From: Desulfomonile tiedjei DSM 6799
GTDB taxonomy: Bacteria > Desulfobacterota > Desulfomonilia > Desulfomonilales > Desulfomonilaceae
DNA length: 64,000 bases
Assembly (NCBI RefSeq): GCF_000266945.1
Contig: NC_018025.1
Coordinates: 4,034,001-4,098,000, forward strand
Reading direction: 5' to 3'
Below, piece by piece: positions 5,366 through 54,800 of the stretch (positions are counted from its first letter, which is position 1; each line of letters starts with the position of its first letter). Below the pieces are notes generated by a model. It saw nothing but the letters and a program-made list of their open reading frames with translations. It made no database searches and was not told where the DNA came from. Made by a program: the position numbers and the translations under genes.

Positions 5366-8300
5366 ATGCCGACGCTCGATCTCAAAACGAACCACAAAGC
5401 CGTGAAGGAATACTACGCAGGGCTCGAAGAATTTCACCGCCTCGGGGTTATCCATGAAACGGCTGTCCGTGCTGCGTTCCAAAGGCTCTTGGAGCATTGT
5501 TGCAAACAAACCAAGTGGACTTTCGTCGGCGAGTACAAATACCTCAGGAAGGGCCAGAGACCGCTCAGCGTTGACGGGGCGGCAGTTGACGGCTTCAAAA
5601 TCCCGCAGGCTTATTGGGAGGCCAAGGATACGCAGGATGACCTCCCGAAAGAGGTGCAGAAGAAATTCGAGAAAGGCTATCCCAGGAACAACATCGTTTT
5701 CCAGAGTCCCGACAGGGCCATCCTTTGGCAAGATTCCCGTCAAATACTTGATGGAGACATCACCAAACCTGATACCCTGGTCTATGTCGTAAAGGAACTG
5801 TTTGCTTACCAGCCCCAGAGCCAAAGGGATTGGGAAGCAGCTGTTGAGGAGTTCAAGCAAGACATACCCGCAAGTGCGGCCAAGCTGGTCGAACTCATCG
5901 AGACCGAACGCAAAGACAACAAAAGCTTTGTGAAAGCTTTCAACAGCTTTTCTGAAGTGTGCCGCTCGTCCATCAATCCCAACCTGTCAGATGCCGCCGT
6001 AGAAGAAATGCTTGTTCAACACCTGTTGACGGAAAGAATCTTCCGCAAGGTTTTTCACAACTCCGAATTCACGGACCGCAACATCATTGCTCGGGAAATT
6101 GAACGGGTCATCCATGCTCTCACATCAAGAAAATTTAGTCGAGAAGAGTTCCTGAGGCCGCTGGATCGTTTCTATGGGGCGCTTGAACGCAGGGCCGAGA
6201 CCCTTGATGACTACAGCCAACAGCAGACCTTCTTGAACACAGTGTATGAGAAGTTCTTCCAGGGTTTTGCTGTCAAGCAGGCAGACACTCACGGTATCGT
6301 GTACACCCCGCAGCCCATTGTAGATTTCATGGTTCGCTCTGTGGAGGAAATCCTGAAAAGAGAGTTCGGGAAGAGTCTGAGCGACGAAGGGGTGCACATA
6401 ATCGATCCCTTCGTGGGCACAGGGAATTTCGTTACACGGATCATGCGGGAGATGAAGAAGACTTCCCTGCCTCAGAAATACTCCCAGGAATTGCACTGCA
6501 ACGAGGTGATGCTGCTCCCATATTACGTGGCATCCATGAACATTGAACACGAGTATTATGAACGGACGGGAGAATACAAGCCTTTCGAGGGTATCTGCCT
6601 TGTGGACACCTTTGAGCTAGCGGAAAGCAAGCAACTATCCTTCATGTTCACACAGGAGAATACCGAGCGGGTAGAAAAGCTCAGAAAAACCAAGCTATTT
6701 GTTATTATTGGGAACCCTCCGTACAATGCCCATCAATTAGACGAAAACGACAAGAATAAGAATCGTAAGTACAAGACCATGGACAAAAGGGTCGCAGAGA
6801 CATATTCGAAAGATAGCTTGGCAACCAACAAGAACGCCTTGTCCGATCCATACGTGAAAGCTATACGTTGGGCGTCAGATAAAATCCTTGAGAGTAGAGA
6901 GGGAGTCGTAGCCTTTGTCTCGAACAGCAACTTCGTGTCGGATTTCGGCTTCGATGGAATGCGTAAGCACCTGCTCGAAGACTTCGATCTTATCTATGTT
7001 CTTGACCTTGGCGGGAACGTCCGAAAGAACCCTAAGATTTCTGGAACGACGCATAACGTTTTTGGAATACAGGTTGGTGTTAGTATTAACCTTTTTGTTC
7101 GTTTGCAGAATCACGGCAGCGGAAGATTCTTCTATTCTCGTGTAGATGATTTCTGGAAAAAGGAGCAGAAATTTTCCCTCCTGGAATCCTGTGGAGCATT
7201 TTCAGCTGTGAAGTGGGAAGAGATGTCTCCTGACGGCAGACACTCTTGGCTCACGAGCGGAATGCAGCCTGACTTCCCTGATTTGTTACCCATGGGAACA
7301 AAAGAGACGAAAGCAGGAATGGGAAATTCCCTCTTCAAGCTGTTCAGTTCTGGCATAAAGACAAATCGGGACTCGTGGGTCTACAATTTCGACGAAACAC
7401 GGCTTTCTGCAAACATTCGCAGGATTATAGAGACTTACAATGACCACGTAATTCGATGGAGCAGCAGTTTTCCCAGGCCAGACGTGGACAGCTTCGTCGA
7501 GGAGGACGTGTCCAAAATCAGTTGGTCCGAGGGTCTCAAGACCTCCTTGCAGAGGGGAAAGGTTGTTCAGTTCCGTGATACGTCCATTCGTAAGGCTCAT
7601 TATCGCCCGTTCACCTCGATGAGATTGTACCTCGATCCTATTCTCGCAGAACGATGCTATCGAATGCCTATAGTCTTTCCATCATCTCATACGGAAACTG
7701 AGAACCTTGCTATTTGCGTCGGCGCTTATGGACGTAAGGCATTTTCTGTGCTGATGGTCGATGGCTTCCCAGACGTGAATTTCTTTGGAGATCCTCATCA
7801 GGTCTTCCCGTTGTTCACTTACTCGGAAGATGGGTCGGATCGACGTGAGAACATCACAGATTGGGCAACAGAACAGTTCTCATCATCTGTAAAAGGCAAA
7901 GTTAATAAGAGGCAAATCTTCCATTACATTTACGCTGCTCTTCACTCTCCAGAATATCGGGAAAAATACCAAGCCAATCTCAAAAGAGAGCTTCCACGGA
8001 TACCTGCGCCGAAAACCATTGACCAGTTCTGTGCGTTCGTGTCGGCAGGCGAACGACTGGCAGATTTGCACATCAATTACGAGTCCCAGCCCGAACACCC
8101 TCTTGAGAAAATAGAGAATCCCGACAAGACCCTTAACTGGCGGGTGGAAAAGATGAAACTGACGAAGGACAAAACAGCCATTGTCTATAACGACTTTCTT
8201 ACCCTTGCAGGCATTCCTCCAGAAGCCTTTGAATACAGGCTTGGCAATCGTTCTGCATTGGAATGGATCATTGACAGGTACCAGGTACACACGGACAAGA

Positions 8301-8425
8301 GGAGCGGCATTGTCAACGATCCGAACCGAGCAGATGACCCGCAGTACATTGTGAAGCTGATTGGGAAGATTATTACAGTGAGCCTGGAAACGATGAAGAC
8401 CGTGAAATCTCTGCCCCAACTGTGA
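5366..8425 (+). CDS. Single-chain type IIG / ISP-like restriction-modification enzyme
   Basis: The 1019-residue product combines endonuclease, N6-adenine methyltransferase and target recognition in one chain. Near the N-terminus a PD-(D/E)XK-type nuclease site is seen: D75 and E85-A-K87 (DGFKIPQAYWEAKD). The AdoMet motif I (DPFVGTGNF) is at about residues 346-354 and the catalytic NPPY at about 450-453, the order of gamma-class MTases. The last 400 residues have the aromatic-rich character of the LlaBIII/LlaGI specificity domain. Classical type ISP enzymes are near 1500 residues with a central helicase; no Walker or DEAD box is present between nuclease and MTase here, so it is shorter and helicase-free, as in MmeI-type IIG enzymes. 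The next gene follows within 15 bases. Confidence 0.85.
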   Translation: MPTLDLKTNHKAVKEYYAGLEEFHRLGVIHETAVRAAFQRLLEHCCKQTKWTFVGEYKYLRKGQRPLSVDGAAVDGFKIPQAYWEAKDTQDDLPKEVQKKFEKGYPRNNIVFQSPDRAILWQDSRQILDGDITKPDTLVYVVKELFAYQPQSQRDWEAAVEEFKQDIPASAAKLVELIETERKDNKSFVKAFNSFSEVCRSSINPNLSDAAVEEMLVQHLLTERIFRKVFHNSEFTDRNIIAREIERVIHALTSRKFSREEFLRPLDRFYGALERRAETLDDYSQQQTFLNTVYEKFFQGFAVKQADTHGIVYTPQPIVDFMVRSVEEILKREFGKSLSDEGVHIIDPFVGTGNFVTRIMREMKKTSLPQKYSQELHCNEVMLLPYYVASMNIEHEYYERTGEYKPFEGICLVDTFELAESKQLSFMFTQENTERVEKLRKTKLFVIIGNPPYNAHQLDENDKNKNRKYKTMDKRVAETYSKDSLATNKNALSDPYVKAIRWASDKILESREGVVAFVSNSNFVSDFGFDGMRKHLLEDFDLIYVLDLGGNVRKNPKISGTTHNVFGIQVGVSINLFVRLQNHGSGRFFYSRVDDFWKKEQKFSLLESCGAFSAVKWEEMSPDGRHSWLTSGMQPDFPDLLPMGTKETKAGMGNSLFKLFSSGIKTNRDSWVYNFDETRLSANIRRIIETYNDHVIRWSSSFPRPDVDSFVEEDVSKISWSEGLKTSLQRGKVVQFRDTSIRKAHYRPFTSMRLYLDPILAERCYRMPIVFPSSHTETENLAICVGAYGRKAFSVLMVDGFPDVNFFGDPHQVFPLFTYSEDGSDRRENITDWATEQFSSSVKGKVNKRQIFHYIYAALHSPEYREKYQANLKRELPRIPAPKTIDQFCAFVSAGERLADLHINYESQPEHPLEKIENPDKTLNWRVEKMKLTKDKTAIVYNDFLTLAGIPPEAFEYRLGNRSALEWIIDRYQVHTDKRSGIVNDPNRADDPQYIVKLIGKIITVSLETMKTVKSLPQL

Positions 8426-17118: not shown

Positions 17119-18858
17119 ATGACTAGGTTTACGGCTCCCGAACATCTTATCTCGAATTTAGAGTCCAGCAGTACCGTGGCTCTGACGGCTCCCGTATTCA
17201 TGAAGGACCGAGTACTGATCGGCTTTGCTCTATCGGATACTGAAGCCCATTGTTTGGAGCTGGGGATTAATGAATTCAAGTCCTTGTGTACATCAATGTA
17301 CCGTGTCGATGGGCACAGTCGTTTCGATATCGAAACAACTGCCTTTCACGGGCTCAAGAGGATTTGGGAGTTCCTTGACGAAATGGGCTTAAACTCGGTC
17401 GAAGAAGCTCCCAACGCTTTGAACCTCAAAGGAATACAAGACACTCGCTTGATGGCGTACCTGCTTGATCCCGACTCATCGCAGGAAGTTAAGTTCGGGG
17501 ACAATCAGGTACAGGAAAAGTTGACCTTTGCCCATGTAGCGCATCGGTATCTTGGCCGTGATTATCCTTACAGGATTACGGACATTTATGATAAGGCTTC
17601 ATGGGATCTCGCCGCCGAGATGCTTGCCTATGATGCGGGCCTGATCTTCGAATTGGCCGAGAAACTGCCTACCCTTATGTCTCATGATCTCCAAAAGCTC
17701 TATAATCAGATAGAGTTGCCGCTCATGCCGCTATTGGACAACATGCGACGGGTCGGGATCGGATTCGACGGCGAAAAATGCGGGGAACTGATAATAGAGA
17801 CGGAACGTGGAATGGCTGCTCTGGCCGCCGACATCACTGGCGGTGAATCTGTAGATCTGTCTTCGAATGAGTCTGTTTACGACTTCTTAACCGCCAAAGG
17901 CGTGCCGGTCCGATTGGCTCCCGCTCAAGTCAAGCGTGGGTTGAAGAAGCCTCTGGGGCAGATCGCCCATAGTGACCCGCTCATAAGGAAGATGCTGAGC
18001 TGGTGGAACAGGGGTGAGGATTTGGGGTTCCTCCGTCGATGGGCGGGCCATAGCCGCATACATCCCACATGGGGCCAAACACGTTCGGCTACTTCCCGCA
18101 TTTATGCTCGCAGCCCAGCCGTACAAAACGTGAGCCGCAGATTGAGGGGACTCTTTGTCCCAAAATCAGGCCACGCTCTGATCAAAGCCGACTATTCGCA
18201 GGCTCAAATGAGGATCATCGCTCACCTTTCCGAAGATCCTGAGCTGATGCGTATATTTCGAGATCCGAACGGAGATGTACATATGGAAACATCCGAGCGC
18301 CTGGGCCTCAATGATCGTTCCGTAGCAAAGGAGATCAACTTTGCAATCTGTTTCGGGATGGGAGCGCCGGGGCTTTGCACGAAGATAAACGAGCTGAGAC
18401 AGGATCAGGGTAGTACGGATTTCATTAATGGGGACACGGCCCGATCTTATATTAAGGGCTTCTACAGAAGGTTTCCCAAAGTGAAAGAATTCTTTGATCG
18501 GGAGTGGAAGAAGATGAAGAAACTCCCCTCAGACCAAAGGATCGTGCGGAGCCTTGCGGGCAGAGAACGTCATTTCCCAAGGTGGCCCACATTTGAGGTG
18601 GAACGGCAGTTTAGGGTTACATGGCCCCAGCAGATCGAAGCAGACTTGATTAAGACGGCAATGTTGCGACTGGACCGAATATTCCGACGACGCAGTATGG
18701 ACGCCCGCATTGTCATGATGATCCACGACGCCTTGTGGGTTGAGTGCCCCGAAAAAGAAGCGGAGCAGGTCAAGCATTTGACGCAAAGGATGATGATCAC
18801 CTCGGGGAAACTAAGGGTTCCGTTGGACGTGGATATACAAATATGCAAGATTGTCTAA
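17119..18858 (+). CDS. Family A DNA polymerase (PolA-like), exonuclease-degenerate
   Basis: The 579-residue product matches the Klenow part of DNA polymerase I without the N-terminal 5' nuclease. Motif A (ADYSQAQMRIIAHL, catalytic D near 358), motif B (RSVAKEINFAICFGMG) and motif C (MMIHDALWVE, H-D near 536) are intact. In motif B the usual YG is FG. The 3'-5' exonuclease region is present as a fold, but the D-x-E of motif I is replaced (TVALTAPV) and the N-x3-F/Y-D of motif II is missing, so proofreading is probably lost. A phage- or plasmid-type replicative or repair polymerase for the element is likely. It stands alone, followed by the palindrome region. Confidence 0.85.
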   Translation: MTRFTAPEHLISNLESSSTVALTAPVFMKDRVLIGFALSDTEAHCLELGINEFKSLCTSMYRVDGHSRFDIETTAFHGLKRIWEFLDEMGLNSVEEAPNALNLKGIQDTRLMAYLLDPDSSQEVKFGDNQVQEKLTFAHVAHRYLGRDYPYRITDIYDKASWDLAAEMLAYDAGLIFELAEKLPTLMSHDLQKLYNQIELPLMPLLDNMRRVGIGFDGEKCGELIIETERGMAALAADITGGESVDLSSNESVYDFLTAKGVPVRLAPAQVKRGLKKPLGQIAHSDPLIRKMLSWWNRGEDLGFLRRWAGHSRIHPTWGQTRSATSRIYARSPAVQNVSRRLRGLFVPKSGHALIKADYSQAQMRIIAHLSEDPELMRIFRDPNGDVHMETSERLGLNDRSVAKEINFAICFGMGAPGLCTKINELRQDQGSTDFINGDTARSYIKGFYRRFPKVKEFFDREWKKMKKLPSDQRIVRSLAGRERHFPRWPTFEVERQFRVTWPQQIEADLIKTAMLRLDRIFRRRSMDARIVMMIHDALWVECPEKEAEQVKHLTQRMMITSGKLRVPLDVDIQICKIV

Positions 18859-23410: not shown

Positions 23411-25402
23411 TCATACCCCAAGCTTGTGAAAAAATATCATATTTCTCATATTGGCATCTTTCAGAACCTTATCCCAACTGATCACTTCGACGTACAGATT
23501 AATGTTGTTATACCACTGAAACCATCCAAGATGGTCAGGCATAGGCTTGAAGTCCTTCTCCCGTTGTAGCCATTTCACTACTTTCTGCGTTAAATCACAA
23601 ACGACATATCCGTAAAACGGTGTGTTATCGGAAATGAGAATAGCACGGCCTTCAGGCGTCTTGAAATCCCCGTCCTTTATTTGGATCACATACCTTACGA
23701 TCTGCTCAACGGGGTCTTCCTTTGACGAAGGATTCACAAAATCATCACGCTGTGGCTTCTTGAATTCAAAGATGGTGACTGGATTCCCAGGTTCATTGTC
23801 GCCTCTGAATAAGACACGCTGATCGTAAGCCAGTAAGTCGGGTCTGGCCGAATTAGGTCCGTTCAAAGGCAAATCAGAAGAAATATATCTGGTAAAATTC
23901 AGGCGCTCATCCACCAGCCAGAGATTGTGTTCTTTGAACGGGGTTGTCTCGCTATCTTGTTTTCTTGGAAAAATAATATCGTGGACTAGTCCCTCGGACG
24001 AATAGCTTCCGTCCTGATTCAATTCCAAGCTTCTCTTGAACAACTCCAAAACATGTTTTCTGGATGCAATGTAATGGATAAGATCGTTCTTGCTGGTCCC
24101 AGAGATTCTTTCTACAATTTTCGTCACATCAGCCTTGTGGTCTTCGATGCTACTTTTCGACAACAGTTCATCGACTTCTCGTTTAATTGAAACTTCACTA
24201 TTGAATTTGGCCGTCTGTAATGTGATTTCAATTTCTTCGCTTGAGGCCTTGAAAGGCAGGTCTGATAAATCTAGTTCTTTGAACGTTTCTCGATGCCAAG
24301 GAGCTTGTTCCTCAACATAGGACTCGACCCTCGCTCTCTTCTTTTCTTGCCTACCCTTAATGTCGTCGCCCATGGCTTTCTTGGCAATGTCTGATGCAGC
24401 TTTCTCTATTTCGTTTTGAGAAATTGCATACAGGAGATCTTGATCTCTATGGAAATCAAAACCGCCTCGTTCCAAGGAGACGTGGATGTCCAGGTATTGA
24501 CCAAAAACGTAGGCTTTGATGATGTAATTTCTATTAGTAACACTATCGTCATTGTGTATTTCATCATAGAATTCATCGATGAATTCTGGAACATAATTAT
24601 GTATCGGCGTATCTGTGACCTCTCGTTTATGGGCAACTAAGCTAATCTTGCTTTTGCGATTCCCTGGATTATAAAACTTGAATACTCTGGAAGAAAAATC
24701 ATGACCTGAAATGTGAAATACTGACTCTGGAACCTTTATTTCCTTTATGAGGCTCGACAACCCGTTGTTGACATAATTATTCAAGGTGATCGAGTTGGAG
24801 CCGTCTTCCTCGGCTATCTCAATCTTAGGGCAGACATAATCTTGGGTTATAAAATAAGGCAACAGTCGTTCAACCAAATGTGTAGCAATGGTGTCGAGTT
24901 TTCTGTCAGGGAAATTACCATGTTTGATCGTGCGTAATCGTATTTTGCTGCCAGACGCTTTCGCATCTGATAGACTCACTCGTTCATCAATGATGATATC
25001 ATGCTCCTTCCCCATGCGAAAAGTTCGTCTTTTGAACTTCTTGCTGTCCTTATAGTCACTTTCCACACTCAGGTCTTCAAAATATTTCAGACAGACAAAC
25101 CTTCCGAAACCTTTTCCGCCTTCTGTCATTTTTTGAACTGAATAGAGCGTGTCGAACGATTCTCTGTTCTCGTCCGTGAATCCTATACCGTTGTCGACAA
25201 TTGCAAACCCTTCAACCAATGGCGTGCTTCCGTCAGTTTCAAGCTGTTTCGAGCGTTCAACCAAGACGGTGATCTTGCCGTCTTTTTCTTTTTTGGATTC
25301 AATGGCCTGGATAGCATTCACAATCATATCAACTACAGGGGTGTAAATGGTCGTTCCCGATTTTATGTTTTCAACGGCACGCCTTATATTGATCTTACTC
25401 AT
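23411..25402 (-). CDS. GHKL ATPase fused to PD-(D/E)XK nuclease, putative defence protein
   Basis: Started at the ATG behind GGGGAGAG, the product has 663 residues; an upstream in-frame ATG at 25447 lacks a site. Residues 1-110 hold a GHKL (Hsp90/MutL/histidine kinase) ATP-binding fold: motif N (DMIVNAIQAI, N29), G1 (VDNGIGF, D70) and G2 (GGKGFGR, 95-101). The middle 400 residues are unassigned. Residues 519-550 show P521-D522 and F-E546-F-K548 (ARPDLLAYDQ ... TIFEFKKP), the core of a PD-(D/E)XK nuclease with an E-x-K-P end as in Shedu-type DUF4263 nucleases. A sensor or ATP-switch controlling a nuclease is the simplest reading. It stands alone beside type III restriction and CBASS genes, so antiviral function is inferred. 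Confidence 0.7.
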   Translation of the reverse strand: MSKINIRRAVENIKSGTTIYTPVVDMIVNAIQAIESKKEKDGKITVLVERSKQLETDGSTPLVEGFAIVDNGIGFTDENRESFDTLYSVQKMTEGGKGFGRFVCLKYFEDLSVESDYKDSKKFKRRTFRMGKEHDIIIDERVSLSDAKASGSKIRLRTIKHGNFPDRKLDTIATHLVERLLPYFITQDYVCPKIEIAEEDGSNSITLNNYVNNGLSSLIKEIKVPESVFHISGHDFSSRVFKFYNPGNRKSKISLVAHKREVTDTPIHNYVPEFIDEFYDEIHNDDSVTNRNYIIKAYVFGQYLDIHVSLERGGFDFHRDQDLLYAISQNEIEKAASDIAKKAMGDDIKGRQEKKRARVESYVEEQAPWHRETFKELDLSDLPFKASSEEIEITLQTAKFNSEVSIKREVDELLSKSSIEDHKADVTKIVERISGTSKNDLIHYIASRKHVLELFKRSLELNQDGSYSSEGLVHDIIFPRKQDSETTPFKEHNLWLVDERLNFTRYISSDLPLNGPNSARPDLLAYDQRVLFRGDNEPGNPVTIFEFKKPQRDDFVNPSSKEDPVEQIVRYVIQIKDGDFKTPEGRAILISDNTPFYGYVVCDLTQKVVKWLQREKDFKPMPDHLGWFQWYNNINLYVEVISWDKVLKDANMRNMIFFHKLGV

Positions 25403-25559: not shown

Positions 25560-25654
25560 AACACGGAAATAATTGTGCATCCAGGCAAGAACGTTGCGAA
25601 CATCGTTACATGACCTTGAAAGAACCGATTTAGAGCCCGGCATAAAAACGAAAA

Positions 25655-25679
25655 GAGGGCAGCCAGTTTGGCTACCCTC
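25655..25679. terminator. Hairpin terminator after the AAA+ ATPase gene
   Basis: GAGGG-C-AGCCA and TGGCT-A-CCCTC form an 11-bp stem with one mismatch around a 3-base loop; CTTTTCG follows on the minus strand. It lies 80 bases beyond the stop of 25759-27273 and could end transcription of that gene. Confidence 0.5.
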
Positions 25680-25758
25680 CCTCTGACGGGTCGGTCGGTC
25701 AGTCAGTCATCTCTAAGAGTCACGAGATTCGCCGCTATTTAGCTGGAGAAAGGAAAAA

Positions 25759-27273
25759 CTACTTACTTATATTGACGTGATACGCACGAGCTACGCTGAT
25801 GATTTTCTCTCTGGTGAAAGAATACAGCCTCGCCTTACGATCCGCCGTTCGTTTCTTTTTTGTGCGATCCGCCAAGCCCAGATGAGCTAACAGCTCGCCT
25901 TGGGACTTTGGAGTTAAACTCTTCGGCAGCTCGATATCGTGATCGGAGACATATTCATTGAATTGAGTCAACAAAACGTCTCCACGATACTCGCCGTCGT
26001 CGCTTATCGCCTCCGAAAGAAACGACAAGTAAGCGTGTTCAGGTGACGATTCGCTGAAATCCGCCAATTGGCCTTTGTGAAAGTCAATGGCAAACTCCGT
26101 AACCGCAGCCACGACCGAAGGATCTTCAGTTGCGGTTGCGATAGCGAATATGGGGCGGAATAACTCGTATTCCCTCCCCGCAAACGGGACGATACCTGAA
26201 GGATCTCCCATCTGCATATACACGTCCCGAATCATCGGGGCGTAAGTCAATGCCGACAAGAAGCACGAATCACGAACCGCTTGCGCTTCCGTTTGGTCTA
26301 TGGGAATCAGAATCCGTGTCGTGCGAGACATCAGAATCTTAACAGTTCGGGACGCCATCACGTCCTCAAAGCCTGCTTGTGATGCGAAAGCCCGAGGAGC
26401 GTACACTTCAAAGTGCTTGTGACGCCATCTGCCGCCCCTATTGACCGAACGCAATACTTTTCCGCCCTTCTTGTACGCCGATAAGAGTATCGCTCTCTCA
26501 CCTGCGAGACTTCTCCGTTGGAATTTCTCGCTTTCGTCAACGCAGAGCGTTCCACTATTGGACTGGACCAAACGGACATGCGCCGCCGGGCTTATATCGG
26601 GAGTCAACTCGCCATTGAAACAGATCTGCGCCAGTGTCTCCAGAGCCGTCGTTTTTCCCACAGCCTTCGGCCCATTAAAATGGACATAGGGATATGAGTG
26701 AAAGCCCTCAAACATGTACGTCCCCACGACCCATGCGGTCAGGAAATCGTACTGGCGATGATCCCTCAAATCAATATGCGATTTGAGAGTCTCTCTGACG
26801 ATGTGGAAGGTTTCCAGCAGGTCGCCCTTCCACGATCCGTCCAAAAAGCCTTTCACTGCTTCTCCGCTGTACCTCGGGTCAACTAAAACATCCTCAAAGG
26901 GAATCCTTGAATAGATTCCCCGTTCCGTCAGTTCCTTCGGGCTAAGCGGAAACAGTTCACGGTCGCTTGTTATGACCCATGGAGCCGGGACCATAAGACC
27001 ACTTTCGGGATCAAAGCCCATCCGAGGGATGGTCATCACCAGTCTATTACCTACGAAATCAAGCGGTGGCCTAATTCTCCCTCGATGAGTGAAATCGGCC
27101 AGAAACGCATCTTCCGAGGCCTCAACCTGATGCAGGAGCACATTACCCTCTTCGCCGTCAGGAAGTCGGACTATACCGTAAGCATCCGTCTGGCTCTCCA
27201 CATGCCCATACTCAAGAACCTCTATGTCGGCAGAAGTAGTGGACACTGGTCTTAATTCATACTTTGAAATCAT
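25759..27273 (-). CDS. AAA+/helicase-like P-loop ATPase of element A
   Basis: The 504-residue product has a Walker A GPKAVGKTTAL at 201-211 and a Walker B TLCVDESEKF at 242-251, followed by conserved features (SAYKKGGKVLR, SRTVKILM) like those in DUF927/DUF3987-type helicase domains of integrated elements. The first 190 residues have no zinc or Toprim motif, so it is not a full primase. A short C-terminal winged-helix-like tail (PKSQGELLAHLGLADRTKKKRT) follows. The element B primase-helicase has a similarly placed ATPase, so a replicative helicase or loader role is likely. The ribosome site is enclosed in an inverted repeat (27280-27300). Confidence 0.6.
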   Translation of the reverse strand: MISKYELRPVSTTSADIEVLEYGHVESQTDAYGIVRLPDGEEGNVLLHQVEASEDAFLADFTHRGRIRPPLDFVGNRLVMTIPRMGFDPESGLMVPAPWVITSDRELFPLSPKELTERGIYSRIPFEDVLVDPRYSGEAVKGFLDGSWKGDLLETFHIVRETLKSHIDLRDHRQYDFLTAWVVGTYMFEGFHSYPYVHFNGPKAVGKTTALETLAQICFNGELTPDISPAAHVRLVQSNSGTLCVDESEKFQRRSLAGERAILLSAYKKGGKVLRSVNRGGRWRHKHFEVYAPRAFASQAGFEDVMASRTVKILMSRTTRILIPIDQTEAQAVRDSCFLSALTYAPMIRDVYMQMGDPSGIVPFAGREYELFRPIFAIATATEDPSVVAAVTEFAIDFHKGQLADFSESSPEHAYLSFLSEAISDDGEYRGDVLLTQFNEYVSDHDIELPKSLTPKSQGELLAHLGLADRTKKKRTADRKARLYSFTREKIISVARAYHVNISK

Positions 27274-32904: not shown

Positions 32905-33909
32905 CTACCCGTAGTCGGGAAAGGAACTTCCAAAGATTTCGCCCCATTTAGCGATTGAGGCGTGTTGATTACCTTGGTCTTCTAACTGCCTTGCCTCCAA
33001 TGCTCTCTGGTGATCATAATTTGCCCTGCTCCAAATCTTCTGTCGATCCTGATGGGAAAGCGTGTTGATGTCACCTTGCACCCCCGTTGGATCATTGACA
33101 GAAGAAAAGAGGGAGTTCGCTATGTGGGCCAATACTTTGGGGATTTCCAGATCAACGTAAGAGCTGGCCTCGGAACACCAGACATTATCGTAGTGATCCA
33201 CAATCATTGTCTCAAGAAGGTAAGATGCCATACTCGGCATCGTGGGACGCCTGTTCCAGTACTTCATAATACGAATCACATTCAAAATGTTGCCCTTGTG
33301 AGTTTGGTTCACCCTCGTCACTCTATCCCGATCATTTCTTGGGTCACTCTTCTTCCAAGCCCCGTTCCCATCAGGAATCAGATAGTAGGTTCGGCCCCAG
33401 GCATCAGGTTCCGTAAAGAAACAGGGGACAATATCGAAACTCCACATATATGACGTAAGATTCAGTACAGCAGCCTCCAAGTTTCTCTTTATGGCAGCAT
33501 TCTTATATTGGGGAACTGAGGACAGGTGAGAGACAAACTTGTTTATAACCTTCCTTGAATTGAGTGTGAATGTCCCATCATTGCATAAAGGGCCTAAGTT
33601 GCTACCAGCACTACGTATGGTTATGTCGCAGTGACCCCAAGACTCTGCATAAACTGAGCCCTGGGCATGCAAACAAATCATCATATCTATATCGTCCAGA
33701 GGTCGTATCTTTGTCATTCTGGCAAAGGAACCAAAGAAAATGTCCTTCTCTGAGTATAACCGGGGAAAACTCCCTTCAGCTTCAGGAAAAGACCGTATCT
33801 GCTTTACTAGCCAATCTCTGCTCTTTCGTGCGCTTTTAGTCTCTTCAGGATCTAAGTTCACGACATTCTGCATGAATTGATTGAAGGCAGATGTTACCGA
33901 AGTAGCCAT
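32905..33909 (-). CDS. CD-NTase-like nucleotidyltransferase 2 (CBASS cyclase)
   Basis: The 334-residue product has the CD-NTase active site: G60-S61 (FFGSFARMTKIRPL), D73 and D75 (DDIDMMICL) and D159 in MWSFDIVPCF. The C-terminal half is helical, as in cGAS/OAS-like enzymes that make cyclic oligonucleotide signals. It starts 4 bases after the stop of the S-4TM effector gene on the same strand, so it is translated with it. All three acidic ligands are present. It is clearly different in sequence from the second cyclase gene at 35123-35914. The nucleotide produced is unknown. Confidence 0.8.
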   Translation of the reverse strand: MATSVTSAFNQFMQNVVNLDPEETKSARKSRDWLVKQIRSFPEAEGSFPRLYSEKDIFFGSFARMTKIRPLDDIDMMICLHAQGSVYAESWGHCDITIRSAGSNLGPLCNDGTFTLNSRKVINKFVSHLSSVPQYKNAAIKRNLEAAVLNLTSYMWSFDIVPCFFTEPDAWGRTYYLIPDGNGAWKKSDPRNDRDRVTRVNQTHKGNILNVIRIMKYWNRRPTMPSMASYLLETMIVDHYDNVWCSEASSYVDLEIPKVLAHIANSLFSSVNDPTGVQGDINTLSHQDRQKIWSRANYDHQRALEARQLEDQGNQHASIAKWGEIFGSSFPDYG

Positions 33910-33913
33910 GAGG

Positions 33914-34855
33914 TTACTTCTCCGTTTCGTCTTTCTTTGTCACTTGCGCTTCACGGACCAATTCCTGCACCCCCCGCCTCATTTGTTCCTCCTGTTCATC
34001 CTTCAACCAATCGTGAATCCTGTCGAAAATCAAAGGGCAACTACGACGATGATCATAGATTTCATCCTGAAGAAATCTGGCCTCAGTTGTGATTTTTTCT
34101 GGAGAAGACGCTGGGTCTTTTGCCTTCGTCCAGAGTGAATCGGCGTGTTTTATAAGCTTATCTAATGTGTCACAGGTATCTACTTGCCGCCTATATTCCC
34201 GAATGGCCCAAAGAATCGCAGGGGAGATTGGAGCAAAGACAGAGAGGACAAGATCAGATACCGACAATTGTTTTCCGATACCAATTACGATTGTCAAGAT
34301 GATTGCCAGCGTCAGTATTAATCTTATCCATTTGTTGTATCTACGTCTTAAATTAGCATCCCACATTACGTTTGATCGTTGGCAAGCCACAATTCCCTGA
34401 TACAATGGCAAATCGCCAACTTCAGGAGCATACCATGTTTTGTCTATCTCGTTTTTGGCCGTCTTCTTGTATGCCTTTGCCGCAGCGACAATGCTCTCAG
34501 CACTTGGTTTACTCCCGATCTTGAAAGTCCGCCATTCCATGTCAAACAGTTCGCAATCAAAAATCTCCTGTATCTTAGCGGCCTCCAGTTTCAGGCGTTT
34601 TTGCTCGGAATCGAGAAAGAGGACATCTAGGATCGATAAAGCGACTCCGTATGCCACAGCCCATACCTTCAAGTGCTTCCAGTCCTGTGAGTCCCCCACA
34701 AGAACTGTGATTATCGAAAATAATATAGGGATCAAGACAGTGAAAAGAATTTGGCATCCTAGTCGGACCTTTGCTCGTCCGTAGAGATAGCTGGAGGCAG
34801 CAAGGTATTCAAGTAATCGGTCAGAGCTTTGCTTCTCGGGAATATCGTTTTGCAA
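33914..34855 (-). CDS. S-4TM family putative pore-forming effector (CBASS)
   Basis: The start is taken as the TTG behind GGAGGT (five-base gap), giving 313 residues that begin with the family signature IPEKQSS-R-LEYLAAS-YLYGRAK. A further upstream TTG is less likely. Two hydrophobic pairs make four membrane segments: about residues 37-55 and 60-78 (ILFTVLIPILFSIITVL, WAVAYGVALSILDVLF) and about 190-240 (LILTLAIILTIVIGIG, LVLSVFAPISPAILWAI). This is the S-4TM arrangement found beside CD-NTases, where the effector is thought to perforate the inner membrane after binding the cyclic nucleotide, killing the infected cell. The downstream cyclase is 4 bases away. Confidence 0.75.
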   Translation of the reverse strand: MQNDIPEKQSSDRLLEYLAASSYLYGRAKVRLGCQILFTVLIPILFSIITVLVGDSQDWKHLKVWAVAYGVALSILDVLFLDSEQKRLKLEAAKIQEIFDCELFDMEWRTFKIGSKPSAESIVAAAKAYKKTAKNEIDKTWYAPEVGDLPLYQGIVACQRSNVMWDANLRRRYNKWIRLILTLAIILTIVIGIGKQLSVSDLVLSVFAPISPAILWAIREYRRQVDTCDTLDKLIKHADSLWTKAKDPASSPEKITTEARFLQDEIYDHRRSCPLIFDRIHDWLKDEQEEQMRRGVQELVREAQVTKKDETEK

Positions 34856-35122
34856 TCCAGACCTCCACCAAACAATGAATACACCGCCAAGCAACAACAC
34901 TCGGCAGGTGCAGCATCTCGTAACTTTTAATATCAGATATACAGCCTAGCTGGTTTGTCAAGTGCTCGTTTCCCGTGTGGGGCTTGGCCATTCGTGCGAA
35001 GTTGTCCCAAGGGTAAGAAGCATCTCCTCATTCCCAGACAAGGTTATGGTGGGCAAACCCGATTGTTCTAACGGGTTCGTAATAGTTGTTAACCCCATCA
35101 ACTCGTCGTGTTGCCGTGTTAC
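34856..35122 (-). promoter_or_regulatory. Gap between cyclase 1 and effector, candidate promoter
   Basis: The 267-base gap holds no gene. A consensus -35 TTGACA (minus strand, 34956-34961) followed by AT-rich TATATC / TGATAT boxes could drive the effector-cyclase 2 pair separately from cyclase 1. Spacing to the -10 is not ideal. A 6-bp AACCCG/CGGGTT inverted repeat lies near 35055-35080. Confidence 0.35.
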
Positions 35123-35914
35123 TCATAACTCTGGCACGATTTTCTTTATTTCTAATTCCGCCGAAATAGCCAAGCCGATGTCCTCATACTCCTTCGCTTT
35201 TTGGGCATGCTTCTTGGCGCTATCAACCTTGTCTTTGATATACTGGGCTGTGTCCACGGAGTAGCTTGCGGTTGACCAGAAATGATAGAAATAATCCTTC
35301 AAGGATGAACACGAGTAGAAAAGTGTATCTATTATAGCTTTTTCGATTGAGAAGGAGTTGAATGGGTGAGCATTTTTTGCGTTCCAGTATTTTACGAGGC
35401 GGACTAGCGGTTTTATTTGGGAATTATTATTTATGTTCTTGTCTTGAAGATCTTTGTTAGTCCGAGATGGGTCCGTCGACATCCACTCGGTCCATGAAGA
35501 CGCAGGCGACGGAATTTGATAGCCAAAGAGATTTGAAAGTGCAGGAACTAGTTCAAAACTGATGTGATTGAGAGATAACACAATAGTCGGGTGGGATTGG
35601 GCTCTTTCCGATGTTGAGTACTTTGCCTCCACGAATGTTTTCAAGTTAGTCAGGTAGGTTTGTGGCTTTTTAGCCGACCCTGGAGATGAAGCGAACACCA
35701 CCATGTAGTCGATATCAGAATTGTTATCGGCTTTGCGAGGGAGAATCGTGCCTCTAGTACTCGAACCAAACTGAAAATGGCCAGTCACTTGAGAGCCGAA
35801 ATGAGAATCGAGTCTGGTCTTCAATGTGGCGATGGACGTGGCGATGCTTGCTTTTTCCGCCGCCGAGAGCACAAGGTCGCTCGCCAGATCAGTGAGATAC
35901 GAATTAACGGACAT
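35123..35914 (-). CDS. SMODS-type nucleotidyltransferase 1 (CBASS-like)
   Basis: The start is the ATG behind a perfect AGGAGGT site, giving 263 residues; the frame is open 30 codons farther. The active-site motif is G50-S51 (FQFGSSTRGTILPRK) with D67 and D69 (SDIDYMVVF). At the third acidic position the sequence is SFELVPAL, with Glu (E121) where most enzymes have Asp. The helical C-terminal part is shorter than in cyclase 2. It lies 267 bases upstream of the effector gene on the same strand. Family assignment is firm; whether it makes a signal of its own or acts in another way is unknown. Confidence 0.75.
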   Translation of the reverse strand: MSVNSYLTDLASDLVLSAAEKASIATSIATLKTRLDSHFGSQVTGHFQFGSSTRGTILPRKADNNSDIDYMVVFASSPGSAKKPQTYLTNLKTFVEAKYSTSERAQSHPTIVLSLNHISFELVPALSNLFGYQIPSPASSWTEWMSTDPSRTNKDLQDKNINNNSQIKPLVRLVKYWNAKNAHPFNSFSIEKAIIDTLFYSCSSLKDYFYHFWSTASYSVDTAQYIKDKVDSAKKHAQKAKEYEDIGLAISAELEIKKIVPEL

Positions 35915-36170
35915 CCATGTACCTCCTGTTGATCCCGGTATCCATGATTCCCAGGATGGGAGGGAGTGTAGCATACCTATATGGCGGATCGCAACACGCT
36001 CCAACGTGTCCTACTCGATGAAACGTGCTCGGCCAGCGTTGGCGCATGGCAGGAAAGGGCGTGAGCTATGGTATGGCCGTAGCGCCCGCCTCTACAAAAG
36101 GTTCAGGTCAATGCTGTGTAATTTGAAATTTGTAGGCAATGAGATTACAGGGGGGTGATGAAAAAATCAT

Positions 36171-42727: not shown

Positions 42728-44273
42728 GTAAAGCTTCAGTTTCGAGCGGTAGTTTGAGAAGAATTTTATTTTTGGGGTTAAATGGTTCTCGCGTTCGGGT
42801 TTGAGATGGGGTATAGGCTTGGTGGGTGAAACGCTTGTTCAGGTGATGATGGGATGGGCATAAACGGTTGTCCGGTTTGTTTGGAAAAACAGCGTTGCAT
42901 TGACGAGTTAAAAGAAAAGATCCAGAGCCTGGAGGCTAAACTGCGCTATCAAGAGCGCAAGGCTCAAGAAGGATACTTCGGCTCTTCCACTCCCTCATCC
43001 AAAATACCAATCAAGAGGAACAGTGAACAGAAGGAGAAAAAGCCCAAAGGTGCGCGGCAGGGACACAAAGGTTCCGGTCGCAAGAGCCACGAGTGCGAGT
43101 TTGATTATGCGGTAGAAGTGGAGGCTCCAGATATCTGTCCCGAATGCGGGGGTATTCTTGAAAAGAAAGGGGTGGAAGAGAGGAGTGTCCTGGATACGCC
43201 TTCTCAAAAACCCGAACGAATAGTATTTCGCTTACCCAAAAGGTATTGTTATCGTTGTGAACGCACGTTTACTCCCCAGACTCCCGGGGTGCTTCCCAAG
43301 AGTCTTTACGGAAATCAACTCATTGCCAATGCCATGACGATGTATTACTTCTATGGTCTTCCCATGGGACGAATCTGTGAACAGACTGGAGTAAGCGAAG
43401 GAAGCCTGATGGAGGTATATCATCGAATGGGGCGACTTTTTGAAAGAGTTCCCCAGAAGCTCATTGAAGAATATCGACAAGCTCCTGTGAAACACGCAGA
43501 TGAGACGAGCTGGCGCACTGACGGCAAGAACGGATACGTTTGGCTCTTCGCCACTCCCGATTTGAGCATTTTCCAATTTGGCAAGAGTCGCTCGTCCCAA
43601 GTAGCTCATGCAGTCCTCGGCAAAGATCGGCTACCGGGCGTTTTGGTTGTGGATCGTTACCGCGGCTACAAGAAAGCTCCATGTGAGATTCAATATTGTT
43701 ACGCTCACCTTCTGCGAGATGTCCAGGATTTGGAAAAAGAGTTTCCCGAAGAAGCAGAGGTCTCAACTTTTGTGGCTGTTGTGGCTCCTTTACTTGCACT
43801 CGCTCAGGGACTTCGCAGCCAACCGATTACGGATAAGCAATTCTATCGTCGAGCGGCTAAGCTTCGGACTGAAATTAAGGCCGCAATGGAACGACCGGCC
43901 CGCCATATGGGCATTCGCCGGATCCAAGGTATCTTCCGTGAAAATGAAGAGAGGCTCTATCACTGGGCTCGAGACCGAACGATTCCGGCAGAAAACAATT
44001 TAGCCGAAAGAGATCTGAGACCCACTGTTGTGGCAAGGAAGGTCAGCTATGGATCTATTTCTGATAACGGAGCCAAGACGCGCAGTATTCTCACAACCGT
44101 CCTCACCACCCTCAAGAAACGAGGTAACGACCCTGCAGAACAGATGAAGAAAACTCTCGATCAATTAGCAACGAATCTTAAGCTGGACCCCTATGAACTC
44201 CTCTTTCAAAGAAACGGCCCTCAAGAATAGCTATATCCATCACAATTGCTCCCGCGAATAACTGAAGCTTTAC
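42728..44273 (+). mobile_element. IS66-family element copy 1 (ISBst12-like), 1546 bp
   Basis: The ends carry 14-bp inverted repeats GTAAAGCTTCAGTT and an 8-base target duplication AAGCAAAT (42720-42727 and 44274-44281), the usual size for IS66. Only the large transposase gene is present; the small tnpA and tnpB genes of classical IS66 are absent, as in the ISBst12 subgroup. Confidence 0.9.
42854..44230 (+). CDS. tnpC: IS66 family transposase (TnpC), copy 1
   Basis: The 458-residue product has the IS66 order: N-terminal coiled helix, zinc finger (CPECGGILEKKG... YCYRCERTF) and DDE domain (VKHADETSWRTDGKNGYVWLF, LVVDRYRGY and AENNLAERDLRP). It differs from copy 2 in only about seven residues (for example YYFYGLP against YYLYGLP, IQGIF against IQDIF), so the two copies spread recently. 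The frame is complete and probably active. Confidence 0.95.
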   Translation: MGINGCPVCLEKQRCIDELKEKIQSLEAKLRYQERKAQEGYFGSSTPSSKIPIKRNSEQKEKKPKGARQGHKGSGRKSHECEFDYAVEVEAPDICPECGGILEKKGVEERSVLDTPSQKPERIVFRLPKRYCYRCERTFTPQTPGVLPKSLYGNQLIANAMTMYYFYGLPMGRICEQTGVSEGSLMEVYHRMGRLFERVPQKLIEEYRQAPVKHADETSWRTDGKNGYVWLFATPDLSIFQFGKSRSSQVAHAVLGKDRLPGVLVVDRYRGYKKAPCEIQYCYAHLLRDVQDLEKEFPEEAEVSTFVAVVAPLLALAQGLRSQPITDKQFYRRAAKLRTEIKAAMERPARHMGIRRIQGIFRENEERLYHWARDRTIPAENNLAERDLRPTVVARKVSYGSISDNGAKTRSILTTVLTTLKKRGNDPAEQMKKTLDQLATNLKLDPYELLFQRNGPQE

Positions 44274-45001
44274 AAGCAAATCGTTTTTTCACTTGACGTG
44301 TTCGGGGCGCTTTGTTTACGCTTGGATCATTGTATTTAAGTCTCATGATAAGAGAGACGTTGTTCGCGTAGGGTTATGTGAGGGGCTCCTCTGTTTTTCA
44401 TCTTGGGGGAAGCTATTGTCTATAATTGGTTGACAATTTTCAAAGTCGTAATGGGAGTCAAGAAGGGGATTACTTTATTCGAGAATTAAAGCCTCTATGA
44501 ACAGATGCAAGATAAAGAAAAGAGTGCTGTACGATGGGCTCGAATGAGACACCTCAGATCAGGTGTCTTCATCTCAGAGCCACGAGTTGACAGATTACTC
44601 GAGAAAGTGATTGCTCACGAAATTCGGAAACAGAAAGCCAGGTCCGAATTGGAAAGGCAACGTTAATCAAGCATGGTGTACCCGGAATCCGGAAATAAAT
44701 TCGTGGAGCAGTGCGGTTGCTCAAGTATGGCTCGAAGGCTGTCTTAGGTCTGAGAAGGGTGTTCTGAGATAAGTATGGTGTACCGAATTCAGCGGAATTC
44801 CCAAGGAAACAAAGCGATACCTTTTCGCACACCTGTTAATTTGATAAAGCAGAAAGGCGCGATCCCCAAGGCAATACAGGGGTAATAGCCAGGATTGCCC
44901 TTTCAATAAGACGTGTCGTACTGTATTAGGTCTGCTCCTATTGTTCAGACATCGGTGCTGAGTCGATTCGAGCATGTTAGCAGGATGAACCGGAGATCTT
45001 C

Positions 45002-47849: not shown

Positions 47850-48055
47850 GGTCGGGGGGCGCTTCGTTCCACCTCCCCCATCTTCGTGCGAAAGCTTTAC
47901 GATCATTTTGGATGTCCAGATCGTCTGTAACGTATTGTTGCTAATAAGAAATTGGAAAAATTTACTTATGCATTAATCGCACAGCAGGACGTCATTTCAA
48001 GCAGATACGGATTGGCTGCTCTCAGACTTACTCAACCGACTTTTTTTGAACAAAT

Positions 48056-49601
48056 GTAAAGCTTCAGTTATTCGCGGGAGCAATTGTGATGGATATAGCT
48101 ATTCTTGAGGGCCGTTTCTTTGAAAGAGGAGTTCATAGGGGTCCAGCTTAAGATTCGTTGCTAATTGATCGAGAGTTTTCTTCATCTGTTCTGCAGGGTC
48201 GTTACCTCGTTTCTTGAGGGTGGTGAGGACGGTTGTGAGAATACTGCGCGTCTTGGCTCCGTTATCAGAAATAGATCCATAGCTGACCTTCCTTGCCACA
48301 ACAGAGGGTCTCAGATCTCTTTCGGCTAAATTGTTTTCTGCCGGAATCGTTCGGTCTCGAGCCCAGTGATAAAGCCTCTCTTCATTTTCACGGAAGATAT
48401 CTTGAATCCGGCGAATACCCATATGGCGGGCCGGTCGCTCCATAGCGGCCTTAATTTCAGTCCGAAGCTTAGCCGCTCGACGATAGAATTGCTTATCCGT
48501 AATCGGTTGGCTGCGAAGTCCCTGAGCGAGTGCAAGTAAAGGAGCCACAACAGCCACAAAAGTTGAGACCTCTGCTTCTTCGGGAAACTCTTTTTCCAAA
48601 TCCTGGACATCTCGCAGAAGGTGAGCGTAACAATATTGAATCTCACATGGAGCTTTCTTGTAGCCGCGGTAACGATCCACAACCAAAACGCCCGGTAGCC
48701 GATCTTTGCCGAGGACTGCATGAACTACTTGGGACGAGCGACTCTTGCCAAATTGGAAAATGCTCAAATCGGGAGTGGCGAAGAGCCAAACGTATCCGTT
48801 CTTGCCGTCAGTGCGCCAGCTCGTCTCATCTGCGTGCTTCACAGGAGCTTGTCGATATTCTTCAATGAGCTTTTGAGGAATTCTTTCAAAAAGTCGCCCC
48901 ATTCGATGGTATACCTCCATCAGGCTTCCTTCGCTTACTCCGGTCTGTTCACAGATCCGTCCCATGGGAAGACCATAGAGGTAATACATCGTCATGGCAT
49001 TGGCAATGAGTTGATTTCCGTAAAGACTCTTGGGAAGCACTCCGGGAGTCTGGGGGGTAAACGTGCGTTCACAACGATAACAATACCTTTTGGGTAAGCG
49101 AAATACTATTCGTTCGGGTTTTTGAGAAGGCGTATACAGGACACTCCTCTCTTCCACCCCTTTCTTTTCAAGAATACCCCCGCATTCGGGACAGATATCT
49201 GGAGCCTCCACTTCTACCGCATAATCAAACTCGCACTCGTGGCTCTTGCGACCGGAACCTTTGTGTCCCTGCCGCGCACCTTTGGGCTTTTTCTCCTTCT
49301 GTTCACTGTTCCTCTTGATTGGTATTTTGGATGAGGGAGTGGAAGAGCCGAAGTATCCTTCTTGAGCCTTGCGCTCTTGATAGCGCAGTTTAGCCTCCAG
49401 GCTCTGGATCTTTTCTTTTAACTCGTCAATGCAACGCTGTTTTTCCAAACAAACCGGACAACCGTTTATGCTCATCCCATCATCACCTGAACAAGCGTTT
49501 CACCCACCAAGCCTATACCCCATCTCAAACCCGAACGCGAGAACCATTTAACCCCAAAAATAAAATTCTTCTCAAACTACCGCTCGAAACTGAAGCTTTA
49601 C
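48056..49601 (-). mobile_element. IS66-family element copy 2 (ISBst12-like), 1546 bp
   Basis: Same ends and length as copy 1, opposite orientation, with its own 8-base duplication GAACAAAT (48048-48055 and 49602-49609). The two copies lie 3.8 kb apart, with the first ankyrin module between them. Confidence 0.9.
48099..49475 (-). CDS. tnpC: IS66 family transposase (TnpC), copy 2
   Basis: The 458-residue product is intact and nearly identical to copy 1, with the same zinc finger and DDE residues (KHADETSW, VVDRYRGY, NLAERDLRP). It begins MSING in place of MGING. Inverted identical copies can drive inversion of the 3.8 kb between them by homologous recombination. Confidence 0.95.
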   Translation of the reverse strand: MSINGCPVCLEKQRCIDELKEKIQSLEAKLRYQERKAQEGYFGSSTPSSKIPIKRNSEQKEKKPKGARQGHKGSGRKSHECEFDYAVEVEAPDICPECGGILEKKGVEERSVLYTPSQKPERIVFRLPKRYCYRCERTFTPQTPGVLPKSLYGNQLIANAMTMYYLYGLPMGRICEQTGVSEGSLMEVYHRMGRLFERIPQKLIEEYRQAPVKHADETSWRTDGKNGYVWLFATPDLSIFQFGKSRSSQVVHAVLGKDRLPGVLVVDRYRGYKKAPCEIQYCYAHLLRDVQDLEKEFPEEAEVSTFVAVVAPLLALAQGLRSQPITDKQFYRRAAKLRTEIKAAMERPARHMGIRRIQDIFRENEERLYHWARDRTIPAENNLAERDLRPSVVARKVSYGSISDNGAKTRSILTTVLTTLKKRGNDPAEQMKKTLDQLATNLKLDPYELLFQRNGPQE

Positions 49602-51823: not shown

Positions 51824-54800
51824 ATGGGTGTCCGAGTTACTCCCTTACCGACAAATTTGAGGGGCTTCGTGCATACGATGCTCCCAGAAATGGACATAGA
51901 TAAGCTTCAAGTTACAGGACGTTACGATCCAACGAGAAAAAGAGAGGGCCGAGTCCATTTGGGTATCGACGTCCAGGGCAAGGGCTACACTGGCAACGGC
52001 ACTCCGGTTTGTTCGCCATTCAATGGAACATTTTACATATTGGAAGGATGGGAAAAAACCAATGGAGTCGCGATTGTAGATGACAAAACTGGTCTCATGG
52101 TCGTCCTATGCCATATGAAATTGAACCCAAAAATAAAAGATGGAGATCCTGTTAGTATCGATACCCAAGTTGGGACCATGAGTGATGTTGGTTCCGAGGG
52201 GGCAGTTCACCTTCATTTCGAAATGCGAAATCGAAGCACGAATCCCTGTAATCCTCAATATAGCAGATGGATCGAAGTGTGGGCAGATGCGTATAACAAA
52301 GACCCTTACCTTTTTCCAATTGGTACTCCGGGGTGCAAAATTGGACCAGCCTTGGATTTGTTCGACAAGAAGCCAGTCCCAACACCTAGCAGAGACCCTT
52401 TGGTACTCGATCTTGATGGCGAAGGGATCAAGACCACCAATGTTAAAGACGGCAGATACTTTGACTACAACGGTGACGGTTTTGCCGAGGAAACCGGTTG
52501 GGTTGATCCGCATGATGGCATTCTGGTCATGGACAGAAATGGCAACGGTACTATTGATGATGGTCGAGAATTGTTCGGGGACCAGACGATTTTGCAGAGT
52601 GGCAGACGCGCAGCAAACGGTTTCGAGGCACTGGCCGAATTAGACACCAATGGGGATGGGAAGATTGACGCAAATGATGAGGCATTCTCACTACTGAGGG
52701 TCCTGACAGATGTGGACGGTGATGACTATGCATCAGAAAACGAGTTCCTTAGTCTTGCCGAACTTGGCATTAAGTCTATCGATCTTGACTCAAACCTAAC
52801 GAGTATCACTGACATGCAGGGCAACACACAGAACCGAGTGGGCAGTTTTGAGAAGGTTGATGGCACCACCGGCCAAATTGCTGAATATGGTTTTCAGCGA
52901 GATCCTGCTTTTAGCCTCGTCAACGAAGACATCGATGTTCCTCCAGATTTGGAGACTCTTCCCTTCCTTTCAGGGTATGGGAATGTATACAATCTTGATG
53001 AAGCAATGACCAAAGATAGCTCCGGTCAGTTGAAATCCCTTGTAGAGGAATTCATGAGCTCTGGGGATATCAAACAGCGTAACATTCTGATGAAAGAGAT
53101 CCTGTTTAAATGGGCTGGAACCGAGCGAATGCCCCAAGAAATGAGTGTGCCCGCTGAAATGAGAGCGAGCAGCGGGGAGGCGGGAGCAAGTTCGAGAAGC
53201 ACCGGAAATAGTGACATTGCGGTCGACATGGATTACATCGATCCTCGCAAGTTAGCTGTGCTTGAACATTTTTTTGGTCAACCTTGGTCAGGCGCAAACG
53301 GATCCAGACCCACATATGAAGAGTCATTAAATTTGAATGAGTCCTACCGCTTGCTGTATGAATTGATGTACGGCTGGCTGATGGCACAGACGCACCTCGA
53401 AGACCTGTACGACAAAATTGCTTATACGTGGGATGATGAGGCTCAGAAAACCAGAGTGGATCTCACCAGCGTAATCACAGACATTTGGCAAAGCCTGACC
53501 GACAATGCCGATCAAGGAAGGCAACTCCTTGCGGAATTCGCCCGCTCGCTTCGCGGTTTCCCATATTCATTGTCCCAAGACGACGATTTGCGGCAAGATG
53601 ATTACCTTTCTTTTCGCGAGACATTTATCCAGCAGGACCCCAGCCTGGGATGGGTATTCGATACCGGCGGCTTACCTGAGTCCCATATCGTGGGCATGCA
53701 CATTACCGGGACGGATGCCTCTGATGCTGTGAGAGGTAGTCTTACGGAAGGTGACGCAGTAATAAATGGCTATAATGGCAATGATGTCGTGTATGGAACG
53801 TCTCGTGATGAAGTCTTGTACAATGAAACCGGGAATGCGATCCTTGTTGGGGGCGGCGGAAACGACTGGATCTGGGCCGGGGCTGATAGTGACATTTTGG
53901 ATGGTGGTGAAGGCAACGATATGCTCTACGGCGAAGGAGGCGGAGACACTTACATCTTTAGAAGGGGCTCCGGGCATGACACCATAATTGAATCTGACCC
54001 TACCCCAGATATTATCGACAGTATTTTTCTCGGTAGCAATCTCACTCCAGATGACATTTTCATACGTCGGGCAGGAAACGATCTCGTGTTGCGGATCAGA
54101 GACACCTCAGATACTCTCGTGGTGAAGAACCATTTCAGGAATGATAGCACCCTCAATGGGATAGAACGTATCGTTTTCATGGACGGCACCATCTGGACGC
54201 AAGATGACATTCTTCAAGCATCTTATGCAGCCACAGATGGAGATGACGCTCTTTACGGCGGATTGGGAGCCGACGAAATAAGAGGAGGCGACGGTAACGA
54301 CTCCATTTATGGGCGACCAGGTGACGATACTCTGCACGGTGATGCAGGAAATGACAGGCTCTTCGGCGGCCCGGGTAATGACACTTTCGACGGTGGTAGC
54401 GGTAATGATATTCTCTGCTATGGAGACGAGATCAACTGGTATCCTTATTCAGTAACGAATGGTGATGACGTTTATCTTTTCAGCATTGGCGGAGGGCAAG
54501 ACGTCATTACCGATTATGATCCAACACCCGGCAACGTAGATACAATCCGCTTTGGTGAAGGCATCACTCTTGATGATATTCTCTTTCATCGAAATTACAA
54601 CAATCTCGAACTCTCAATTCGGGGCACCACTGACAAACTCACTATCACAAATTTCTTGGATGAATCCGGAGCACATCTGATAGAACGCATCGAATTTGCC
54701 GATTCCACAGTATTGCTGCCGGACGACATAAAGAACATTCTCGTTAAAGGAACCGATGATGGAGAGGTGATAAACGGTTTCTCCATCGCAGACGTGATGG

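Follow-up and report, generated by a model that had tools for sequence, protein, structure and literature searches.

The paraMORC3 proteins described by Iyer et al. 2008 (PMC2292703) consist of GHKL and S5 domains and, at the C-terminus, an RE-fold domain with the residues E-D-ExK. In the account given there, nuclease-bearing paraMORC3 genes are laterally mobile and a subset stand alone. VcSduA, from the WASA lineage of Vibrio cholerae, comprises GHKL and DUF4263 domains (Adams et al. 2025, PMC12137116). As reported in that work, VcSduA defends against Drexlerviridae and vibriophage X29, with anti-phage activity seen at all tested MOIs. Either E27A or K557A abolished defence, so both active sites are needed. 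The same paper predicts a dimer with a clamp-like middle, links VcSduA to paraMORC3 and Shedu type I-D, and places homologues in about 1.2% of genomes. The Shedu assignment of VcSduA is repeated in PMC12409362.

A single gene encodes a GHKL ATPase fused to a nuclease

We analysed 64,000 nucleotides of Desulfomonile tiedjei DSM 6799 (contig NC_018025.1, positions 4,034,001 to 4,098,000), hereafter the window. A gene for a paraMORC3/VcSduA-type GHKL ATPase and PD-(D/E)XK nuclease occupies 23411..25402 on the minus strand, where the initial annotation had placed it. The reading frame opens with ATG at 25402, ends with a stop codon at 23413-23411 and encodes 663 aa. It is intact, without frameshift or truncation. 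Residues 1-354 (24341..25402) form the GHKL ATPase and then a transducer/S5-like domain, residues 355-463 (24014..24340) a long helical linker and residues 464-663 (23414..24013) the nuclease domain, all encoded on the minus strand.

This architecture matches both described systems. In common with paraMORC3, there is a GHKL domain (with an exception at D25, see below), an S5/transducer region and a C-terminal RE-fold nuclease with E-D-ExK; the genes are often stand-alone and laterally mobile. VcSduA shares the N-terminal GHKL domain, the clamp-like middle, the C-terminal PD-(D/E)XK domain, the single gene and the defence neighbourhood. Fusion of GHKL to a PD-(D/E)XK nuclease in a single protein is also the arrangement of Shedu type I-D. 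The shared architecture, the numbering of the catalytic residues and published work suggest homology to VcSduA. Family members from Salinivibrio, Vibrio fluvialis and Acinetobacter have E27 and K556 or K558, against E27 and K557 in VcSduA. The E27 position is D25 in the window copy, and K548 is equated with K557 by motif position. The initial annotation could not tell whether the architecture had been described. It had been, in 2008 as paraMORC3 and in 2025, with an anti-phage role, as VcSduA, and the idea of a new architecture was rejected. The window protein belongs to this already described bacterial anti-phage family. The fresh points are only the E25D substitution and the restriction-modification (RM) operon contexts, and neither implies a new kind of system.

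A terminator-like hairpin (25651..25683, minus strand; a 15-pair stem, then CGTTTTT) ends the upstream gene. Because the hairpin separates the GHKL-nuclease gene from that same-strand gene, which encodes a 504-aa protein, we regard the former as a one-gene unit, as first annotated. A two-gene system was rejected since the hairpin intervenes; the 504-aa gene was also absent from all neighbour clusters spanning at least two loci. The 504-aa protein (25759-27273, minus strand) contains a Walker-A-like stretch, GPKAVGKTT, and had no match in Pfam, PADLOC, NCBIfam or PHROGs. For the GHKL-nuclease protein, nothing useful was returned by PADLOC and NCBIfam, or by phmmer and hmmsearch against PDB sequences. 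PADLOC gave no consistent family for 44 members.

The C-terminal domain is a PD-(D/E)XK nuclease

Conservation was assessed in an alignment of 67 rows, being the window copy and 66 relatives, including one identical pair (L038, L128). In the C-terminal domain, E470 (23993..23995), D522 of the PD motif (23837..23839) and both E546 and K548 of the ExK motif E546-F547-K548 (23759..23767; all on the minus strand) are invariant in 67/67 rows. The same is true of H474, which lies close to E470, and of W495, D498 and S509. Judged from the alignment, conservation of the GHKL and nuclease motif residues is far beyond chance. A chance motif match was ruled out, since the catalytic residues are kept in every row.

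The initial annotation proposed a profile search of the C-terminus against DUF4263 and other nuclease families, and the search found nuclease similarity. With hhalign, the C-terminal profile scored 44.5 against SduA_C (probability 87.9%, 139 columns) and 41.4 against HSDR_N (79.4%, 73 columns). The null was 100 column shuffles per comparison, which reached at most 21.0 and 21.6, respectively. Middle and N-terminal parts gave probabilities of just 0.1-1.7% against either profile. The SduA_C profile was built from 11 of 13 loci, omitting L048 (frame unrecovered) and L051 (under the family cut-off). The HSDR_N profile was built from the 12 of 25 loci with a single clean frame >170 aa. By motif and profile, the C-terminal domain is a PD-(D/E)XK nuclease, as first annotated.

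The lineage of this nuclease is less clear-cut. It may be of the HsdR type, or another RecB-like PD-(D/E)XK enzyme, with the Shedu label reflecting a shared fold only; we consider this somewhat unlikely. By direct HMM search, HSDR_N was the sole nuclease family matched by more than one member (5/44, best E 0.0068), and SduA_C matched 0/44 members, window copy included, at E <= 0.1. The HSDR_N profile score is also near that for SduA_C, and Iyer et al. 2008 (PMC2292703) report that the paraMORC3 C-terminal domain matched RecB-family nucleases. Against this, the SduA_C match spans 139 columns, last strand and helix included, against 73 for HSDR_N, and Adams et al. 2025 (PMC12137116) assigned DUF4263 to VcSduA. 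In the profile alignment, Shedu SduA (SduA_C, PF14082, DUF4263) shares the nuclease order D, E-x-K, Q helix and terminal strand-helix. Its N-terminal domain, as presented in PMC12409362, differs from the GHKL domain of the window protein. HsdR proteins have HSDR_N followed by an SF2 helicase motor; the window protein matched HSDR_N weakly in a direct Pfam search (E = 0.03, residues 419-586), and no helicase domain was found in it. PF14082 had no match in the D. tiedjei genome. Lineage was compared by profile; no Shedu chain stood among the fold matches listed, which were filled by the N-terminal module and so carry no information on the nuclease. We tentatively favour a Shedu rather than an HsdR-like nuclease. 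Hence, the Shedu-like label given initially stands as a remote similarity, consistent with the published VcSduA/paraMORC3 family, since no member of the 44 matches SduA_C directly and HSDR_N is nearly as close.

The ATP site carries a unique aspartate

Pfam HATPase_c covers residues 24-116 of the window protein (E = 5.9e-5, under the curated, or gathering, cut-off). The same domain was matched by 30/44 family members at E <= 0.1 in a direct HMM search. N29, D70, G72, G74, G98, G100 and R101 are invariant in 67/67 rows. From knowledge of GHKL enzymes, we take N29 (25316..25318, minus strand) to be the motif-I Asn that serves Mg-ATP binding. The initial annotation called the ATP site complete. 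These seven residues bear that out but the motif-I catalytic acid does not. Codon 25 (25328..25330, minus strand) is GAT, encoding D, and the position is E in all 66 relatives. Hence, D25 is unique to the window copy. In GyrB, MutL and Hsp90, the motif-I glutamate activates the attacking water. Aspartate keeps the carboxylate on a shorter side chain. With this substitution, ATP turnover by the window copy is probably slow, and the protein may dwell longer in an ATP-closed state. A literature search for Asp substituting the gyrase catalytic Glu found no paper. The substitution, at an otherwise invariant catalytic acid, is a natural experiment: does defence need ATP hydrolysis, or binding alone?

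An AlphaFold2 model built from 44 sequences had a mean pLDDT of 85.8 and a pTM of 0.71; an earlier run on 5 sequences was poor (pLDDT 59.8) and was left unused. Residues 1-354 of the model aligned with Hsp90 (8eob_B; Z 19.4, rmsd 4.0, 289 aligned) and MORC2 (9cdj_B; Z 18.9, rmsd 3.8, 288 aligned). MORC3 was also among the aligned chains, and topoisomerase VI B ranked high in Foldseek. The aligned MORC2/3, Hsp90 and topoisomerase VI B chains include the S5/transducer domain that follows GHKL. The predicted fold is thus alike, yet identity to MORC2/MORC3 and Hsp90 is just 11-17% among the matches listed. To our knowledge, MORC2/MORC3 and Hsp90 carry no nuclease domain. DSSP assigned helices to residues 346-365, 368-376, 388-415 and 419-458 of the model. 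Because residues 1-354 align with Hsp90 and MORC2, much of the 400-residue middle, initially left unassigned, is transducer/S5 region followed by long helices. The term "unassigned" therefore no longer holds for most of it.

A proposed ATP-gated clamp

The explanation that we find probable is a single-protein anti-phage nuclease of the paraMORC3/VcSduA type, in which closure of an ATP-gated clamp would permit the cutting of phage DNA while the host survives. On ATP binding, the GHKL-transducer modules would most likely dimerise. The dimer would then close, as a MORC/Hsp90-like clamp, round DNA or a phage-made structure. Closure would align the two C-terminal PD-(D/E)XK domains in register, and the registered domains would cleave phage DNA while sparing the host. 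Control of cleavage by ATP-driven dimerisation, also suggested in the initial annotation, is a hypothesis already published for VcSduA, and may apply here. The present analysis establishes the architecture, the family membership, the conservation of the catalytic residues and the predicted fold. We infer that the window copy is active, acts on DNA and has its nuclease gated by ATP-driven dimerisation. Type III RM and CBASS defence genes nearby provide supporting context.

As a counterpoint, E25D, shared with none of the 66 relatives, might impair the window copy. This copy could be decaying or weakened, the substitution having cost ATP hydrolysis and left a protein that binds ATP but is slow or inactive. 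The uniqueness of D25 among 67 rows is what such decay would offer as evidence. We think it unlikely, however. The 663-aa frame is intact, all other invariant motif residues are retained and a Glu to Asp change keeps the carboxylate. The anti-phage clamp is preferred below.

Relatives are scattered and mobile

Colinear full-length relatives with 50-64% identity were found in Spirochaetota, Thermodesulfobacteriota and Gamma-, Alpha- and Betaproteobacteria. Four genome contigs hold full-length relatives. Among plasmid records, 55/72,556 had relatives, of which 43 cover >=80% of the query; for phage records the count was 1/50,697. Four scans of IMG/VR contigs gave 2, 29, 34 and 16 loci, overlapping between scans. 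A viral scan with the single window protein as query gave nothing useful. As a rule, relatives occur as single genes and are carried on plasmids and prophages. GHKL-nuclease defence proteins thus reach well beyond Vibrio and occur in several phyla, on chromosomes as well as on plasmids and prophages.

The gene is rare and patchy among genomes related to that of the window. Three of 60 related genomes matched, own genome included; one (G031) has a near full-length match and the other the GHKL part only. A sample of the phylum gave 9/297 matches, again including the own genome, apart from which only the match in G514 extends over much of the protein. Of 274 genomes from the class to which the Thiotrichaceae relative belongs, the single one that matched was the source of that relative.

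The first set of loci excluded matches to the GHKL part only (L018, L020, L022, L024), a copy of L012 truncated where its locus stops (L014), a protein with 22% identity over its length (L017) and duplicates of the window copy (L005) and of L003 (L016). From the larger set, L130, L133 and L140 (in-frame stop as built) and near-duplicates (>95%) were left out, and L150 was removed for low similarity ahead of the 67-row alignment. Two of the excluded sequences are more distant GHKL proteins of the same phylum. L018 has a divergent E...PD...ExK C-terminus; L017 has E in motif I and retains E, PD and ExK. Hence, the family extends beyond these 67 rows.

The tree places the window copy, with strong support (100/99), in a clade of 13 whose other members come from Thiotrichaceae, Spirochaetota, Fundidesulfovibrio, plasmids and viral contigs; L003 is the nearest row (65%). 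The Vibrionaceae and Acinetobacter plasmid members lie in a different clade. In phage vB_RanS_PJN03, a GHKL-nuclease relative (L038:2485-4509) adjoins an integrase gene. Its GenBank label, N-acetylmuramoyl-L-alanine amidase, is probably a misannotation of a phage-carried defence gene.

Restriction-modification genes precede some relatives

The initial annotation suggested a genome-neighbourhood survey. Upstream neighbours were surveyed in 22 of the 27 first-alignment relatives, leaving out L004, L006, L027, L030 and L032. RM genes precede the GHKL-nuclease gene on the same strand in 5/22. In L002, a fused type I M-S gene overlaps it; in L003, type III Mod, SoFic and Res come before it. In L008, it shares a 4 bp overlap with a type IIG gene, and a Fic-family gene lies upstream. 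Type I R-(AAA)-M-S genes come before it in L026; in L012, type I genes do so together with a Shedu gene, the latter overlapping it by 4 bp. Fic-family genes are near the close relatives L002, L003 and L008 (SoFic by PADLOC in L002 and L003; related by blastp). The remaining 17 have varied neighbours, such as integrases, an AbiE pair, RnlAB, IS elements, a SIR2-ATPase pair, PDC-S06 and a Lon-like protease. No neighbour family occurred in more than 4 loci (blastp E <= 1e-6, a search that remote kin would escape), and no conserved partner was found at that threshold. On the Vibrio fluvialis plasmid pIDH5335-1 (L012:5556-8950), a classical Shedu gene (SduA_C E 1.7e-27) lies at the end of the type I RM operon, where it overlaps the GHKL-nuclease gene by 4 bp. 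The related Salinivibrio plasmid has the same operon but lacks the Shedu gene.

These contexts raise the possibility that the protein is an RM accessory subunit, working with or backing up a neighbouring RM enzyme, in the window the divergent type III Mod-Res pair. The five same-strand arrangements (L002, L003, L008, L026, L012) point that way, and Iyer et al. 2008 (PMC2292703) place MORC/paraMORC genes mainly within RM systems. We consider the idea rather improbable. No RM gene lies directly upstream in 17/22 relatives, and the adjoining RM types differ (I, IIG, III), so there is no fixed RM partner. VcSduA functions alone, as reported in PMC12137116. In the window, type III RM and CBASS genes are present as first annotated, but the 504-aa gene and the terminator-like hairpin separate the GHKL-nuclease gene from the Mod-Res pair, which is encoded on the other strand; the CBASS genes follow. 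In Iyer et al. 2008, some of the nuclease-bearing paraMORC3 genes stand alone, whereas five of the relatives examined in this work belong to RM operons, of three types. With the single-protein clamp as the preferred reading, such occasional placement is a testable lead on how these clamps are triggered. It is very improbable that the window copy is a natural slow-hydrolysis clamp of the paraMORC3/VcSduA type (E25D), poised ATP-closed, from a clade whose members have been drawn time and again into type I, IIG and III restriction operons as the final gene, often accompanied by a Fic-family gene, to act as a second line of defence that is independent of modification and comes into play once the primary restriction enzyme has failed.

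Other features of the window

At 32905-36004 (minus strand), a 4TM (S_4TM) effector gene lies between two different CBASS cyclase genes. A type ISP restriction-modification enzyme is encoded at 5366-8425 (plus strand; Type_ISP_C E 2.6e-102) and a family A DNA polymerase, also matching the PADLOC RTasPolA profile, at 17119-18858 (plus strand). Two IS66-family copies lie in inverted orientation at 42728-44274 and 48055-49601, their 1547-nt arms being 99% complementary. Finally, a 3949-aa protein (51824-63673, plus strand) matches M23 peptidase at its N-terminus and contains RTX and HCBP_related repeats by the dozen.
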